From Microcoleus sp. FACHB-1515 (GTDB taxonomy: Bacteria; Cyanobacteriota; Cyanobacteriia; Elainellales; Elainellaceae): a DNA stretch of 64,000 nucleotides. Within the stretch, counting starts at the first letter, position 1. Each line of letters begins with the position of its first letter. The stretch spans positions 186,001 to 250,000 of the forward strand of contig NZ_JACJPO010000020.1 in NCBI RefSeq assembly GCF_014696105.1, read 5' to 3'. Positions 5,948 to 12,706 of the stretch are shown here, in pieces. The notes under the pieces were generated by a model. The model searched no databases. It worked only from the letters and a program-made list of their open reading frames with translations, and had not been told where the DNA came from. A program made the translations under genes and the position numbers.

Positions 5948-6835
5948 TCAGTAAAAAATCAGCGGCAGCACACCCAAACTTAAATTCACCAGCAGCGTCC
6001 AGATTCCCGCCATCAGTTCGATCGCCTGTGCCGATTTCAAAGTTGGACGCATCCAGAAACGTCCTGCTAAGACGATCGAAATTCCTAAGAGAGCCAGCAC
6101 GATCGCGATTGCAATCCAGTAGCGAATCTGGACGGCTGCACCAATCGCCGCAATTCCGGCAATCCAGAGTGAACCGAGCCAAGCGGCGATCGCATTCGTC
6201 TGTCCCCAAAGTGCGGTGTAGGTTTCGACTCCGGGTTCTTCCGCTTCGGGAGCGCGGATTTTGCGACCCAGTTCGATCGCCAGTCCGTTTCCGTAGCTGA
6301 CGGCCAGAAACCAGAGCAGCGCGATCGGGAAGTTACTCGATCGCAGCCAGTCGCAGCTTGAGGCATACAGCGCGAGCAGCGGCATGATCAGCATGTGGGA
6401 CAGGAGGTAGGCGATCGGATGACTTTTTAGCCAGTCAGGAACGAAAAATTCGTGCCGCATCAAGGTCGTGTAGAGCCAAATGATCGCCAGCAGCAGAACG
6501 GATTTCCAGCCGAGAGCGATCGACAGACCCAGTTGAATCGGGGCACAGCCCCAGCCGATCGCCCGCAGTTCGCTCAGCGTCACCAAGCCTCGCGGGACGG
6601 GACGATATGGCCGATAGCGAAAGTCGTCCTCGAAATCTTTGAACTCGTCGGCAATTCGCAGTTGTAGGAAGGCGAGGAAGAGGACGATGAAGGCAACTAG
6701 GGCGGCTCCCGGATCGATCGAACTGCCCGTTAACTGGTGCGAATAGCCGATCGCCCCAGCGCTAAAAATCGCGATCAGCAAACCGTGCTTGAAGATGGGA
6801 AAGCGCTCTTTTTGATAGATCCACCAGCAATTCAT
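5948..6835 (-). CDS. UbiA family prenyltransferase
   Basis: 295 residues with about eight hydrophobic segments. The first Asp-rich motif is ADEFKDFEDD at residues 62-71, followed by the typical RPVPRGLV. The second motif is degenerate (IELGRKIRAPEAEE near 187-200), as in some UbiA subfamilies. UbiA enzymes move a prenyl chain from its diphosphate onto an aromatic ring or a glycerol-type acceptor in the membrane. Its start overlaps the stop of the HMG-CoA reductase gene (ATGA), and it ends 10 bases before the dikinase. The acceptor is unknown; the neighbours suggest a dedicated prenyl-lipid product rather than chlorophyll or quinone synthesis. Confidence 0.85.
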   Translation of the reverse strand: MNCWWIYQKERFPIFKHGLLIAIFSAGAIGYSHQLTGSSIDPGAALVAFIVLFLAFLQLRIADEFKDFEDDFRYRPYRPVPRGLVTLSELRAIGWGCAPIQLGLSIALGWKSVLLLAIIWLYTTLMRHEFFVPDWLKSHPIAYLLSHMLIMPLLALYASSCDWLRSSNFPIALLWFLAVSYGNGLAIELGRKIRAPEAEEPGVETYTALWGQTNAIAAWLGSLWIAGIAAIGAAVQIRYWIAIAIVLALLGISIVLAGRFWMRPTLKSAQAIELMAGIWTLLVNLSLGVLPLIFY

Positions 6836-8136
6836 GACGATCCTCCTTTGCCTCGTGCCAATCGCTGATGAGCGCGGGCAAATTCATCGCTGCACATCGC
6901 CCCGATAATCGACAGTTCGCCGGAGAGCAGTAAGGCCGCGCAAACTTCCGCAAAGGCTTTCGCGTGTCCGGTTCCTGCAAGGCCGAGAATTTCGAGACAG
7001 GCTTGCTGGCTGGGGAGTCCCGTTCCGCCGCCCACCGTTCCGACGATCAAATTGGGAAGTGTCACAGCGGCATAGAGCGCTCCGGATTCGGTCACTTCAA
7101 AGCGCGTTACGCCGATCGCCGACTCCGCGACGCAAGCCGCATCTTGACCGCAGGCGATGAACAGGGCGGCCAGTCCATTGGCGTAATGTCCCTGAACGCC
7201 GATCGTGCCAGCCAGTGTGCCGCCGATCGCAGACATCCGCCAGTAGTTGACCATTTCTGCGGGAGTCGATCGCAACCGTTTTTTCACCAGTTCCGCAGGC
7301 AGCGTCACTTCTGCCGTCACCTTTTTGCCGCGAACGGAAAGGAACGATTGGGCACTCGCTTTTTTGTCGCCGGACAGATTCGCCTCGACAAAAGCGTACT
7401 GCGGGGCGATCGGCGATTGGGCGCGGATGTAGTCGCAGACGGCTTGGGTGGCGATCGTCACCATGTTTTGGCCTGCCGCATCTCCGGTTGTGAACTGAAA
7501 ATCGAGATAAACGTGGTTGCCTTCGACCGTGATTCGCATATCGGTGAGCTTGCCGTGTCTGGTGGTGGATTCGGCAATTTGCTTGAAGGCGGCTTGCTGG
7601 GCGATCGCCCACAGCATAAACTTTCCGACTTCCTCCAAATTGCGAAAGGCAAACCCCGGAGCGCGACTGACGCCTTCATTCAGCAGCATTGCCGTACAGC
7701 CGCCCACTTCGCTAATGAGCTGTGCGCCTCGACTGTAGGACGCCACCAATGCCGCCTCAGTCGTCGCCAAGGGCACATAGTAATCGCCCTGAGCAAACAA
7801 CCCGTTCACGCGCAAGGGGCCAGCAATCCCGATCGGCAATTTCACCGTGCCAATAAAGTTCTCGATATTGCGCTCATACCGCTGCATCTGGACTTCAGTT
7901 TGAGCATCCAGGAGATTCGATCGCACTGCATCCGTTGCATCGAGAATCTGCCAGCGTCGATCGATCGCCTCAGCCGAAATCCTCGCACCACCCTTGATTT
8001 TGGCGGCGGGTGCGATCGATTTGGGGGCAAGATCTTGGGTCAGGGCAGCGATCGAGTCCGTTCCGGCAGCGCTGCGCGATCGAGCTTGGAGCAGTTGCGT
8101 CAGGTAGTCGCTGGCTTGCCGATAGTGTGTTGCCAT
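6832..8136 (-). CDS. Class I HMG-CoA reductase (soluble, catalytic domain only)
   Basis: 434 residues, the size of a stand-alone catalytic domain, with no membrane anchor. The family text is clear: ENFIGTVKLPIGIAGPL (residues 92-108), TTEAALVAS, GDAAGQNMV, IACGQDA, GTVGGGTGLP. The catalytic set is complete: Glu127 in TTEAAL, Lys258 in GDKK, Asp332 in GQDAA and His423 in RAHQR. The enzyme reduces HMG-CoA to mevalonate with NAD(P)H. Cyanobacteria normally use the MEP pathway, and no HMG-CoA synthase, mevalonate kinase or decarboxylase gene is visible here, so the true substrate or product use is open. It is the first gene of the five-gene operon. Confidence 0.93.
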   Translation of the reverse strand: MATHYRQASDYLTQLLQARSRSAAGTDSIAALTQDLAPKSIAPAAKIKGGARISAEAIDRRWQILDATDAVRSNLLDAQTEVQMQRYERNIENFIGTVKLPIGIAGPLRVNGLFAQGDYYVPLATTEAALVASYSRGAQLISEVGGCTAMLLNEGVSRAPGFAFRNLEEVGKFMLWAIAQQAAFKQIAESTTRHGKLTDMRITVEGNHVYLDFQFTTGDAAGQNMVTIATQAVCDYIRAQSPIAPQYAFVEANLSGDKKASAQSFLSVRGKKVTAEVTLPAELVKKRLRSTPAEMVNYWRMSAIGGTLAGTIGVQGHYANGLAALFIACGQDAACVAESAIGVTRFEVTESGALYAAVTLPNLIVGTVGGGTGLPSQQACLEILGLAGTGHAKAFAEVCAALLLSGELSIIGAMCSDEFARAHQRLARGKGGSS

Positions 8137-9100: not shown

Positions 9101-9433
9101 TCAGTACAGTTCTAAGCAATGTAAACTCGGATTGCTCAAAAGCTCTTGGATTGCTTCTACTCCAGAGCGCATCAGCGCTTCAATTTCTGGAGTCGGCGCA
9201 TTTCCACAGCGGAGCCAAATCACTTTAGGCGGAGAACCATACAAACGGCTTCTTTCCGCAAAATCTGCATCCTGAGTCACAATGCAAAAATCGCCTGTTT
9301 TCGCAAACTTCCAAATTTCAGTATCCGTCTTCTCTGCTAGCTGATGAAACTGAACGTGACTGGAATCAGGAAAAATATCTGCTAACCGAGAGACTAGTTT
9401 GCGACTTAAATTTTGATCAAACAACAGCTTCAA
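9101..9433 (-). CDS. DUF5615 PIN-like toxin
   Basis: 110 residues beginning at a TTG that overlaps the antitoxin stop (TTGA). This places the family start text LKLLFDQNLS exactly at the N-terminus, whereas the longer open frame only adds the antitoxin gene read out of frame. It carries the PIN-like acidic residues (FDQN, VTQDADF near 58) and IWLRCGN near 76. DUF5615 proteins are predicted RNases of DUF433-DUF5615 toxin-antitoxin pairs. The TTG start would lower toxin synthesis relative to the upstream antitoxin. Confidence 0.85.
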   Translation of the reverse strand: MKLLFDQNLSRKLVSRLADIFPDSSHVQFHQLAEKTDTEIWKFAKTGDFCIVTQDADFAERSRLYGSPPKVIWLRCGNAPTPEIEALMRSGVEAIQELLSNPSLHCLELY

Positions 9434-9666
9434 GCAGCACCCACCACAGCCACTAAGCGATGTTCTCGATCGGCAGCAAACGCTAAACAAGCGCGAATAT
9501 CTGCTTCGGTCAACTCAGGAAAATCATCTAAAATCTCTGCGTGAGACATTCCCGCCGCCAGCCAGCCCAGCACATCATAAACTGTGATTCGCATTCGTCG
9601 AATACAAGGTTTCCCGCCTCGTTTATCTGGCTCGATCGTAATAATATCGCGGTAGCTTGTTGTCAT
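9430..9666 (-). CDS. DUF433 antitoxin
   Basis: 78 residues starting at MTTSYRD. DUF433 text is clear: GGKPCIRRMRITVYDVLGWL (residues 19-38), then ILDDFPELTEADIRACLAFA. It is a small helix-turn-helix-like protein that neutralises and represses the DUF5615 partner overlapping its stop. The pair sits between two copies of a mosaic repeat. Confidence 0.9.
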   Translation of the reverse strand: MTTSYRDIITIEPDKRGGKPCIRRMRITVYDVLGWLAAGMSHAEILDDFPELTEADIRACLAFAADREHRLVAVVGAA

Positions 9667-9724
9667 AGTGAATTGAATAGCATCTGAGTTTAGGATAAAC
9701 GAATGTGGCCGATGCTGTATCGGA

Positions 9725-9840
9725 TGGAGCGATCGCACCTCCAAAATCAACTGAAGTTCGATCGCTTTTGCAAGAGGGGGATCGATACGCTTCGCTGCCC
9801 AGAGCGAGTGGGGCGATACCGTTCCACAAGCTTCGCGATC
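9725..9840 (+). repeat. Mosaic dispersed repeat, copy 2 (upstream of the antitoxin)
   Basis: Repeats copy 1 at 8928-9060: CAAAATCAACTGAAGTTCGA, GCTTTTGCAAGAGGGGGATC and GCCCAGAGCGAGTGGGGCGA. The short ATCGC element at its end is inverted here (GATACCGTTCC...GCGATC). A third, shorter copy lies at 10449-10531. Confidence 0.75.
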
Positions 9841-9881
9841 GCAGAGCACTTACAATTCCAGTGGTGTATCGATTGCAGTAA

Positions 9882-10842: not shown

Positions 10843-11298
10843 TCATTCCGGCAAGAAACCCGCCTCCAAAACTTGTGCAGAAGTGTACGGGCACGATCGC
10901 AGAAAAGTGCTTGCGGGTAGTCCGGTTTCGATGCTAGCAAGTTCGATCGCATCTTCATAACATTCTGCAAACATCTCTTCCAAGTACCGTTTGAGACTAG
11001 GCGAGTCTTTGAATGCTTTACGAATGCGTCGGCGATGTTCAGCAATACTTGCTTGCCAGCTATTGCTTCGGCGTTCTGGTTGAAATTGCCACTTCAGAAG
11101 GTGAACCAAAATGACGGTAAGGTTACTCTCTAAACTTCTCCGCTCACTGCGCCCCATGTCTTCGATCTCTTCAATCAGATTTTCCCAATCGATCGCCCCA
11201 TAGTTTTGCTGTTTCATCTGGTCGATCGTCGTCTCAATCCACTGAAGATAATCGGTTTCGTACAGATTTTGACGTTGGGCGTTCAGTTCGGCTGTCAT
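10843..11298 (-). CDS. DUF29 family protein, copy 1
   Basis: 151 residues with the DUF29 signature: ETDYLQWIETTIDQMKQQ, DWENLIEEIEDMGRSERRSL, HLLKWQFQPERRSNSW, then a C-terminal SCPYTSAQVLEAGFLPE. DUF29 is a helical family frequent and often multicopy in cyanobacteria, of unknown biochemical role. A second copy of the same length lies 200 bases upstream in transcription order, so the pair arose by tandem duplication. Confidence 0.85.
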   Translation of the reverse strand: MTAELNAQRQNLYETDYLQWIETTIDQMKQQNYGAIDWENLIEEIEDMGRSERRSLESNLTVILVHLLKWQFQPERRSNSWQASIAEHRRRIRKAFKDSPSLKRYLEEMFAECYEDAIELASIETGLPASTFLRSCPYTSAQVLEAGFLPE

Positions 11299-11428: not shown

Positions 11429-11502
11429 ATCGCGAAGCTTGCGGAACGGTATCGCCCCACTCCAATCAACCCCGCCCGTAGGCGGCGAAGCCATCGCTCC
11501 TC
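11429..11502. repeat. Short ATCGC element plus CGCCCGTAGG repeat, copy 2
   Basis: The ATCGC-flanked element (GAAGCTTGCGGAACGGT) is at 11429-11455, followed by CCCGCCCGTAGGCGGCGAAG at 11471-11502. The latter abuts the 3' end of the second DUF29 gene just as the first copy abuts the first, so the duplication carried its flanking repeat. Confidence 0.7.
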
Positions 11503-11956
11503 ACTCTGGCAGAAAACCCGCCTCCAGAACCTGTGCAGATGTGTAAGGGCACGATCGCGGAAAAGTCGATTCTGGCAACCCTGTCTCTGCGCTGGCTTGT
11601 TCGATCGCAGCCTCGTAGCATTTCGTGAATACTTGCTCTAAGTAGGGCTTGAAGCTTGGAGATTCTTCTAAATCTTCGAGAATGCGTCGGCGATGTTCAA
11701 CAATGCTTGCTTTCCAACTATTGCTTCTTCGCTCTGGTTGAAATTGCCACTTGAGTAGATGAGTTAGAAGAATGACAAGACTACTTCTAAATCCTTTTCG
11801 TGCGCTGCGCCCCATGTCTTCAATCTCGTCTATTAAATTTTCCCAATCGATCGCCCCATAGTTTTGCTGCTTTAACTGGTCGATCGTCGCCTCAATCCAC
11901 TGAAGATAATCAGTTTCATACAAGCTTTGGCGTTGGGCATTCAGTTCGGCTGTCAT
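11501..11956 (-). CDS. DUF29 family protein, copy 2
   Basis: 151 residues, clearly paralogous to the gene at 10843-11298: identical blocks include MTAELNAQRQ, YETDYLQWIE and HLLKWQFQPERRSNSW, and the same SCPYTSAQVLEAGFLPE end. Differences cluster in residues 50-65 and 85-135. Its role is unknown. Confidence 0.85.
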   Translation of the reverse strand: MTAELNAQRQSLYETDYLQWIEATIDQLKQQNYGAIDWENLIDEIEDMGRSARKGFRSSLVILLTHLLKWQFQPERRSNSWKASIVEHRRRILEDLEESPSFKPYLEQVFTKCYEAAIEQASAETGLPESTFPRSCPYTSAQVLEAGFLPE

Positions 11957-12173: not shown

Positions 12174-12407
12174 ATGAGTTCAATTCCTGATTTGCTACTT
12201 CGCATTACTCAAACTCCGGGTCAATGCGGTGGTCGTCCTTGTATTCGAGGGATGAGAATTCGTGTTAGCGATGTTTTGGAGATGCTGGCTGAAAATGTTA
12301 GCGTTAGTGAAATTCTTGAAGATTTCCCTGATTTAGAGCCTGAAGATATACAAGCTTGTCTTTTGTTTGCAGCACGACGCACCGCTTTTCCTCGGCTGAC
12401 TGCATAA
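12174..12407 (+). CDS. DUF433 antitoxin
   Basis: 77 residues: GQCGGRPCIRGMRIRVSDVL (16-35), ILEDFPDLEPEDIQACLLFA, and a family-typical ARRTAFPRLTA tail. It pairs with the DUF5615 gene that begins at or before its stop codon. Confidence 0.9.
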   Translation: MSSIPDLLLRITQTPGQCGGRPCIRGMRIRVSDVLEMLAENVSVSEILEDFPDLEPEDIQACLLFAARRTAFPRLTA

Positions 12408-12706
12408 GAGTCTGGATTGATGCTCAGCTACCGCCTACTTTGGCAAACTGGATTAGCAGTAATTTTGATGTAGAGGCAATTGCTCTCCGAGAAATTGGCC
12501 TACGAGATGCGAAAGATATTGAGATTTTTGAGGCAGCAAGAACTGAGAATGTTGTGATTATGACGAAGGACAGCGATTTCGTTGATCTCGTTTGTCGGCT
12601 AGGAACACCACCGCAAATTCTATGGCTAACTTGCGGTAACGTGACGAATCGCAATCTACGACAACTGCTTACAATTACATTGCCTGCCGCGATCGAACAA
12701 CTCTAA
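12404..12706 (+). CDS. DUF5615 PIN-like toxin with abnormal start codon
   Basis: The family normally begins MRVWIDAQLPP, overlapping the DUF433 stop as ATGA. Here the corresponding bases are ATAA: ATA AGA GTC TGG, so the stop is kept but the start ATG has become ATA. Translation would need an ATA start, or the upstream TTG at 12356 giving 16 extra residues that have no family resemblance. The body is intact: RVWIDAQLPPTLANWI, IMTKDSDFVDL, ILWLTCGN. The toxin may therefore be weakly expressed or silent. Confidence 0.75.
   Translation: MRVWIDAQLPPTLANWISSNFDVEAIALREIGLRDAKDIEIFEAARTENVVIMTKDSDFVDLVCRLGTPPQILWLTCGNVTNRNLRQLLTITLPAAIEQL

Follow-up and report, generated by a model that had tools for sequence, protein, structure and literature searches.

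An HMG-CoA reductase-like gene heads a five-gene operon

The DNA analysed here is a stretch of 64,000 nucleotides from the cyanobacterium Microcoleus sp. FACHB-1515 (the window), in which a gene for a protein resembling 3-hydroxy-3-methylglutaryl-coenzyme A (HMG-CoA) reductase (HMGR), the target of statins, heads an operon of five genes. Downstream on the same strand lie genes for a UbiA-like, an Rph-like, a DUF3419 and a polyprenol-kinase-like protein, with junctions of -4, +10, -4 and -1 bases, as in a tightly coupled operon (Table 1). Judged from its sequence and its neighbours, the HMGR-like protein is, with moderate probability, a neofunctionalised class I-like HMGR that acts outside the mevalonate pathway, as one member of a co-retained set of seven genes.

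The protein scores 391 bits against PF00368 (gathering cut-off, 27), which places it in the HMGR superfamily. Its best solved match is the HMGR structure 6hr7 (298.9 bits, E = 5e-88), which we take to be a methanogen class I enzyme. Five structures of plant, human and other enzymes, presumably also of class I, follow at 181 to 190 bits, and the remaining eight solved matches, headed by 6dio and all class II by our assignment, reach at most 45.9 bits. By these scores the window protein is nearer to class I than to class II HMGRs. The sequence-only reading of this DNA had described a complete class I HMGR with catalytic Glu127, Lys258, Asp332 and His423; the gene is indeed intact, and the four residues lie at exactly those positions. 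Strand, operon and cluster go beyond that reading. Counterparts of the human residues Glu559, Lys691, Asp767 and His866 are present in 87, 88, 88 and 88, respectively, of 88 aligned proteins, which include four relatives from other classes outside the main clade; at Glu127 one protein has a gap. Against TIGR00533, the equivalog model for HMGR that uses reduced nicotinamide adenine dinucleotide phosphate (NADPH), the protein scores 328 bits, under the curated cut-off of 441.8.

Table 1. Features of the window, with positions counted from its first letter (aa, amino acids; ORF, open reading frame; PEP, phosphoenolpyruvate).
Feature	Position	Strand	Remarks
HMGR-like reductase	6832..8136	minus	ATG start, 434 aa, intact ORF
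Catalytic residue codons of the HMGR-like protein	E127 7756-7758; K258 7363-7365; D332 7141-7143; H423 6868-6870	minus	
Glu251 codon (human Ser684 place, HMG pocket)	7384..7386	minus	six residues before the Asp690 counterpart
Met301 codon (human Lys735 place, HMG pocket)	7234..7236	minus	placed by counting back without gaps from Asn320 (Asn755 in human)
UbiA-like membrane protein, 295 aa	5948..6835	minus	PF01040 41 bits, cut-off 34.2; 4-base overlap with HMGR-like gene
PEP-synthase/Rph-like ATP-dependent phosphotransferase, 894 aa	3253..5937	minus	PPDK_N and phospho-His domain
DUF3419 protein, 366 aa	2156..3256	minus	PF11899 225 bits; 4-base overlap with preceding gene
Membrane protein, polyprenol-kinase-like, 457 aa	783..2156	minus	N-terminal half putatively in polyprenol/phytol-kinase and CdsA superfamily; 1-base overlap with preceding gene
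Two small overlapping ORFs	9101-9849	minus	DUF433/DUF5615-type pair, by eye
Tandem 151-aa ORFs	10843-11298 and 11501-11956		DUF29-like, by eye
Second DUF5615-like ORF	12356-12706		

The gene stands apart from the mevalonate pathway

The window's genome comprises 5,785,258 bases in 96 contigs, with a completeness of 100, and the HMGR-like gene is its sole match to PF00368 at E ≤ 0.001. A search for HMG-CoA synthase gave no PF01154 match in this genome at E ≤ 1, while six of the 14 genomes used as controls had a match above the cut-off. Three GHMP kinases lie over the cut-off, with galactokinase, IspE and homoserine kinase as their best NCBIfam models, and no mevalonate kinase, phosphomevalonate kinase or decarboxylase is among the three. 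A fourth, weak GHMP hit (16.8 bits, under the cut-off) falls in a frame with a stop. DXR and IspE, enzymes of the methylerythritol phosphate (MEP) pathway, are present. In this genome, the one carrier in which the status of the two pathways was examined, the HMGR-like gene is a mevalonate-pathway orphan, and the genome has representatives of the MEP pathway. The sequence-only reading had found no other mevalonate gene in the window, and its picture of an orphan now extends to the whole genome.

These results bear on the possibility that a mevalonate pathway persists, in part or as a relic, and supplies isoprenoid synthesis. The intact protein and the prenyl-related genes of the cluster would fit such a pathway. 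The failure to find a synthase and the lack of a mevalonate-type kinase or decarboxylase among the three GHMP kinases over the cut-off, together with DXR and IspE, speak against it, and we regard it as highly improbable.

Two HMG-pocket residues are changed

The HMG carboxylate is held, in established structures, by Ser684 and Lys735 (human numbering). The whole pocket, as set out in a review (PMC7503714), draws Ser684, Asp690, Lys691, Lys692 and Asp767 from one subunit and Glu559, Lys735, Asn755, Leu853 and His866 from the other. The window protein keeps the counterparts of Glu559, Asp690, Lys691, Lys692, Asn755, Asp767 and His866 as E127, D257, K258, K259, N320, D332 and H423. Both carboxylate-holding residues are replaced, in 88 of the 88 proteins. 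The Ser684 place, six residues before Asp690, holds glutamate in 82 proteins and aspartate in six. At the Lys735 place, 19 residues before Asn755 without gaps, we find methionine (37), valine (22), serine (11), alanine (7), threonine (6), isoleucine (3), phenylalanine (1) and leucine (1), and no lysine or arginine in any protein. All five solved sequences in the pairwise alignments listed have serine and lysine at the two places. Alignment at the Lys735 place varied, giving Ser302 (multiple alignment), Arg300 (pairwise with 6hr7) or Met301 (pairwise with the human enzyme), and was settled on Met301 by the ungapped count. Since 59 of the 88 proteins have a basic residue at the preceding position, the loss of charge at the Lys735 place is local and does not extend across the whole stretch.

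An acid at the Ser684 place and the absence of Lys735 speak for a substrate that lacks the HMG carboxylate and perhaps carries an amine. The sequence-only reading had concluded from the catalytic residues that the enzyme should work. Its chemistry should, but with Ser684 and Lys735 replaced in every protein compared that conclusion is not supported for HMG-CoA reduction.

The cofactor site can be compared in the same way. R871 is listed in the NADP site of the human enzyme in the same review (PMC7503714), and its counterpart, the arginine for the NADP 2'-phosphate, is R428 in the window protein and is kept in 26 of 26 proteins. Because R428 is retained, NADPH is the likely cofactor. Two further residues listed there for this site, Met655 and Met657, are replaced by Ala221 and Gln223 (83 and 84 of 88 proteins, respectively).

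One alternative is that the protein is a true HMGR, and that mevalonate made from HMG-CoA supplied by a different route, such as the breakdown of leucine, serves as a building block that the AMP ligase of the cluster described below activates and its GNAT protein transfers. Fungal siderophore synthesis, which uses mevalonyl-CoA (SidI/SidF), would be an analogue. Retention of the four catalytic residues, R158 and K259 fits this alternative, as does the regular occurrence of the ligase and GNAT genes in the cluster. The replacement of the Ser684 and Lys735 counterparts in every protein compared, the score below the TIGR00533 cut-off and the failure to find an HMG-CoA synthase in the genome all tell against it, and we consider it unlikely, while giving it serious weight.

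A seven-gene cluster recurs across bacterial phyla

Searching GTDB genomes for the HMGR-like protein gave at least 589 stretches, among which were at least 586 relatives, and the best 80 loci were analysed. A partner was counted if it scored at least 60 bits and lay on the same strand as the HMGR-like gene. Clustering of all neighbours at the 80 loci revealed two recurring families beyond those of the window operon, a GNAT protein and an AMP ligase. UbiA was found at 76 loci, the Rph-like protein at 71, DUF3419 at 63, the membrane kinase-like protein at 57, the ligase at 56 and GNAT at 55. All seven genes lie on one strand at 50 of the 80 loci, and in the identical order HMGR-UbiA-Rph-DUF3419-MEM-GNAT-AMP at 43, or 42 without L061, where the Rph-like and DUF3419 parts share a single reading frame. 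By record titles, the 80 loci fall into 13 phyla plus one unassigned, and the 50 full sets into nine plus one unassigned; many of the 80 are metagenome bins. At least one partner is present at 76 of the 80, across 13 phyla. A Roseinatronobacter plasmid also has the cluster, annotated as a UbiA family protein, a PEP/pyruvate-binding protein, DUF3419, two hypothetical proteins and an AMP-binding protein; at the edge of the record lies the end of an HMGR-like frame.

Many absences arise because contigs end. Where at least 9 kb is available downstream, all seven genes lie on one strand at 47 of 59 loci. The other 12 comprise L071 and L096, which are complete but have GNAT and ligase on the opposite strand, L049 and L086 with none of the six partners, L097 with UbiA and the Rph-like gene only, and seven loci that lack one or two.

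In a tree, 86 rows fall on one side of a branch with a Shimodaira-Hasegawa-like approximate likelihood ratio (SH-aLRT) support of 98, apart from 6hr7 and the plant enzyme. They are the window protein, the 80 loci, the three further genomes of its class and two proteins from Vibrio. This quick tree of 102 rows has long outgroup branches and was used only for the clade and its spread over phyla; 21 weak, partial or repeated rows (L017, L018-L033 and L134-L137) were left out, and four genomes from other classes were entered twice. The rows nearest to the window are those of its own class and L034 (Leptolyngbyaceae), and the smallest starred set also includes rows of Planctomycetota, Myxococcota and Pseudomonadota. 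The closest named relative among the matches listed is a Leptolyngbyaceae bin (78%).

Several loci show features of their own. The Rph-like gene of L034 (12265-14924) is divided among four reading frames that overlap, perhaps through an error of assembly, perhaps through decay. The two Vibrio loci, L138 and L139, carry lone HMGR-like genes whose products share about 63% identity with the window protein and have aspartate at the Ser684 place and methionine at the Lys735 place. By eye, a gene for a cytidine diphosphate (CDP)-alcohol phosphatidyltransferase-like protein and a small membrane gene lie between HMGR and UbiA in L075, L082, L083 and L097, and beside HMGR in L086 and L104; in these six Bacteroidota loci the phosphatidyltransferase-like neighbours are a further hint at a phospholipid. 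Also by eye, a cytochrome P450-looking gene lies near the HMGR-like gene at eight of the 80 loci (L044, L052, L073, L090, L103, L109, L110 and L111). A distant HMGR homologue (39.5%) on a Sinorhizobium plasmid, L141, is flanked by genes for acyl-CoA carboxylase subunits; it has phenylalanine at the Ser684 place by ungapped count and arginine instead of Lys259, and is possibly another re-tooled HMGR.

The seven genes lie apart in some cyanobacteria

The HMGR-like protein has matches at E ≤ 0.001 in 21 of 386 sampled genomes of the phylum. Close full-length homologues occur in four of the 386, all of one class: the window's genome, G011 (74%), G008 (71%) and G213 (70%). By this distribution and the tree, vertical inheritance of the gene in most cyanobacteria is rejected, which supports the sequence-only reading. 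The other 17 matches are weaker or partial, and 16 of them lie outside the class; the one inside, in G225, is a 117-residue match of 26% with a stop. Eight genomes outside the class have more distant class I-like HMGRs (36-45%); seven of these genomes (not G035) have a UbiA match, and partners surround the HMGR gene in G007 and G041.

A foreign contig, introduced by binning or assembly contamination, might also place such a gene here. The assembly has 96 contigs, and other phyla have closely related genes, as contamination would predict. The gene lies inside a contig of 388,811 bases, and the three further genomes of the class, among them the one-contig G011, have genes 70-74% identical to it. 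Contamination is extremely improbable.

Within the class, UbiA matches at E ≤ 1e-20 are found in the four HMGR-positive genomes and in G211. DUF3419 scores over 430 bits in the same five, and about 200 bits in three further genomes of the class. The two families missing from the window operon lie on other contigs of its genome, GNAT at C27:29536-30489 (368 bits) and the ligase at C58:75613-77163 (678 bits; runner-up in the genome, 61.6). G011, a one-contig genome of the same family, has all seven genes spread over five sites, which are, along the contig, GNAT at 0.15 Mb, the ligase at 0.27 Mb, UbiA-Rph-DUF3419 at 0.41 Mb, HMGR at 2.62 Mb and the membrane kinase-like gene at 3.64 Mb. That all seven are retained after separation argues for a single function. 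G213 shows GNAT and the kinase-like gene only as contig-end fragments, and in G008, whose UbiA gene is close to the end of a contig, no Rph-like gene was seen. G002 and G005, which belong to the class and are HMGR-negative, gave no UbiA or DUF3419 match (the Rph-like gene was not searched for), and their GNAT, ligase and kinase matches are only of a weaker level that is also present in the four positives. In another class of the phylum, six-gene loci of the order UbiA-Rph-DUF3419-MEM-GNAT-AMP that lack an HMGR also exist: L176, L177, L178, L179 and L181 correspond to G023, G003, G094, G188 and G086, genomes of about 2 Mb.

The partner proteins suggest lipid-type chemistry

The UbiA-like protein keeps the first acidic motif of its family (D63, E64, K66, D67 and D71) in 22 of 22 aligned sequences. 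A UbiA-like gene is also part of the ebo cluster, which we take to be widely spread and cryptic, and to have none of the other six genes in common with the cluster described here. The EboC model matches the window protein weakly (18.4 bits, cut-off 250).

For the Rph-like protein Pfam finds PF01326 and PF00391 only. The Pfam scan did not report the PEP-binding C-terminal domain that would mark a PEP synthase, and the protein scores below the cut-offs of the PEP synthase models listed. Its closest solved relatives, 5hv2 and 5fbs, are titled PEP synthase and are, we assume, rifampin phosphotransferase (Rph); the RedH and PigC models also match, below cut-off. ATP-binding and phospho-His domains are common to this protein, Rph, the PigC/RedH ligases and PEP synthase, whereas the cluster protein has a central domain of its own with the motif DNxNIxESYxGxxxP, invariant in 22 of 22 sequences.

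The model of the DUF3419 protein (predicted local distance difference test score, pLDDT, 93) has a fold like that of S-adenosylmethionine (SAM) methyltransferases, and Foldseek places SAM methyltransferases on top (E 1.7e-4, template modelling scores, TM, of 0.27-0.33). BtaA, the SAM:diacylglycerol 3-amino-3-carboxypropyl transferase, presumably belongs to the same family (PF11899). An aminocarboxypropyl transferase activity is given for BtaA in a Nat. Prod. Rep. review (PMC10491745). The cluster differs from the BtaA system in that no BtaB-like methyltransferase is among its conserved partners.

The membrane protein of the window has no relevant Pfam or NCBIfam match of its own, and in its family CTP_transf_1 (E 0.00087) and DUF92 (E 0.0097) each match one member of 22, weakly. 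A profile of its N-terminal part (positions 5-244) matches a second protein in 7 of 7 cyanobacteria searched (E 1.3e-35 to 5.9e-42). This second protein has 232 residues in the two cases inspected, and two that were scanned had no Pfam or NCBIfam match; from length and motif we take it to be phytol kinase. A phytol kinase is known from Synechocystis (PMC9782597). The model of the window protein has no Foldseek match under E 0.1, and a second fold comparison gives CdsA (4q2g) with Z 8.5, borderline for a helical membrane protein. A putative relation to phytol/farnesol kinase (VTE5, FOLK), dolichol kinase and CdsA would run through the N-terminal half; unlike these, the window protein and many relatives have an extra C-terminal membrane half, which short Bacteroidota forms lack.

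For the ligase, the nearest NCBIfam models are PRK09274 (fatty acid CoA ligase) and the olefin beta-lactone synthetase OleC, with scores below both cut-offs; unlike the OleC system, the cluster has no OleA, OleB or OleD among its recurring neighbours. In both GNAT members tabulated (L035 and the window's genome) the score for Acetyltransf_1 exceeds the Pfam cut-off, and 16 of 21 members match that family at E ≤ 1. Profiles of the DUF3419 and membrane proteins match no solved chain, and the GNAT profile matches none under E 0.2.

Some class II HMGRs are degradative, and the window protein might work as an oxidase of this kind, making an acyl-CoA for use as a carbon source from CoA and an alcohol taken up from outside, mevalonate for instance. 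HMGR activity can be assayed both ways, as PMC12292504 describes. The partners are of biosynthetic type, without lyases or thiolases, and the sequence is class I-like, which makes an oxidative role very unlikely. The same source reports an active HMGR from Ruegeria pomeroyi that depends on reduced nicotinamide adenine dinucleotide (NADH) and is compared with class II enzymes. We considered this enzyme as a contradiction to the pocket argument and set it aside, since from its description there, rather than its sequence, it seems not to be a class I-like cluster protein.

A proposed reductase in a lipid-type pathway

The window protein shares with class I HMGRs such as 6hr7 and human HMGCR the fold family (PF00368), the catalytic Glu/Lys/Asp/His and the NADP-type C-terminal arginine. 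It differs in having Glu or Asp for Ser684 and a non-basic residue for Lys735, and its gene sits with six unrelated enzymes rather than with mevalonate genes. Our best reading, held with reasonable but limited confidence, is an NADPH-dependent acyl-CoA-to-alcohol reductase in a horizontally spread pathway of lipid type; its substrate and product are what we infer from pocket and partners. The sequence-only reading had offered a special pathway or another thioester. That proposal is favoured and fits both the seven-gene cluster and the altered pocket, and the substrate in it stays at the level of prediction.

As HMGRs usually do, the HMGR-like protein would use NADPH to reduce a CoA thioester to a primary alcohol, in two steps and with four electrons transferred. 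Its substrate would be an acyl-CoA other than HMG-CoA, plausibly made by the ligase, which would activate an acid as a thioester. The DUF3419 protein may add an aminocarboxypropyl group from SAM, GNAT may acylate an amine, the Rph-like protein and the kinase-like protein, presumably dependent on cytidine triphosphate (CTP), may phosphorylate, and the UbiA-like protein may attach a prenyl or other lipid chain. The predicted product is either a lipid of the membrane or a metabolite linked to a lipid. With an acid at the Ser684 place, the pocket would suit an alpha-amino acyl-CoA. One order would use every part: an aminocarboxypropyl ether forms on a lipid alcohol, its carboxylate is activated and reduced to an amino alcohol, the amine is acylated and the alcohol phosphorylated, giving a sphingolipid-like head. 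This order is a guess, and we hold it improbable.

The broadest form of the proposal strikes us as evenly balanced between right and wrong. It holds that an HMGR-fold enzyme no longer using HMG-CoA belongs regularly to a bacterial lipid pathway of seven genes, horizontally spread and so far undescribed, which is found whole in nine phyla and partly in thirteen, among them Bacteroidota, Roseobacters and cyanobacteria. In this pathway an aminocarboxypropyl group and a prenyl or acyl chain would be combined, with at least one phosphate transfer, in a membrane lipid new to chemists.

Several findings weigh against these proposals. In the pocket, R158 (human R590) and K259 (K692), which may also contact the HMG carboxylate, are retained, 59 of 88 proteins have a basic residue immediately before the Lys735 place, and a family-specific arginine, Arg345, is new in 84 of 88 and could stand in for Lys735. 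The pocket change is therefore an argument rather than proof, and HMG-CoA as the substrate keeps a lower but real probability. UbiA prenyltransferases usually have a second Asp-rich motif, in place of which the UbiA-like protein has E188, R191 and K192 (22 of 22), so prenyl transfer by this protein is uncertain. The cluster is not universal either. The counts from the 80 loci describe only the nearest part of the family, the HMGR genes of L049, L072, L086 and L090 have no partners in the available stretch, and none of the six partners was found within about 10 kb of the two Vibrio genes. Conversely, five genomes of family f31, from another class (G003, G023, G086, G094 and G188), have the six other genes in order and no HMGR match at E ≤ 0.001. 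G211, of the window's own class, has UbiA, Rph-like and DUF3419 genes together and no HMGR match; it has only a shorter kinase paralogue, and GNAT and ligase were not searched for. It follows that the reductase is dispensable to the set and would serve a single step, which some lineages omit or accomplish in another way.

Orphan HMGRs are known from Vibrio. They are also described for Streptomyces (PMC13001223). A search of the literature, confined to open-licence papers and so weak evidence of absence, found no description of the seven-gene cluster or of such an HMGR; the accessible parts of PMC12292504, PMC13370337, PMC13001223 and PMC4390852 do not describe the cluster. Orphan HMGRs are known as a kind, and the pathway around this one looks undescribed.

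Orphan HMGR genes in bacteria with the MEP pathway are easily taken for a stray mevalonate gene. If the proposal is right, the family includes a subfamily with another substrate that points to a widespread pathway, and a PF00368 match should not be read as evidence of the mevalonate pathway. The fixed partners and altered pocket make the role of this orphan HMGR directly testable.

Other features of the window

Two small overlapping minus-strand reading frames resemble, by eye, a toxin-antitoxin-type pair of the DUF433 and DUF5615 families, and a second DUF5615-like frame lies further along the window. The tandem DUF29-like frames are identical at 118 of 151 residues, a duplication.

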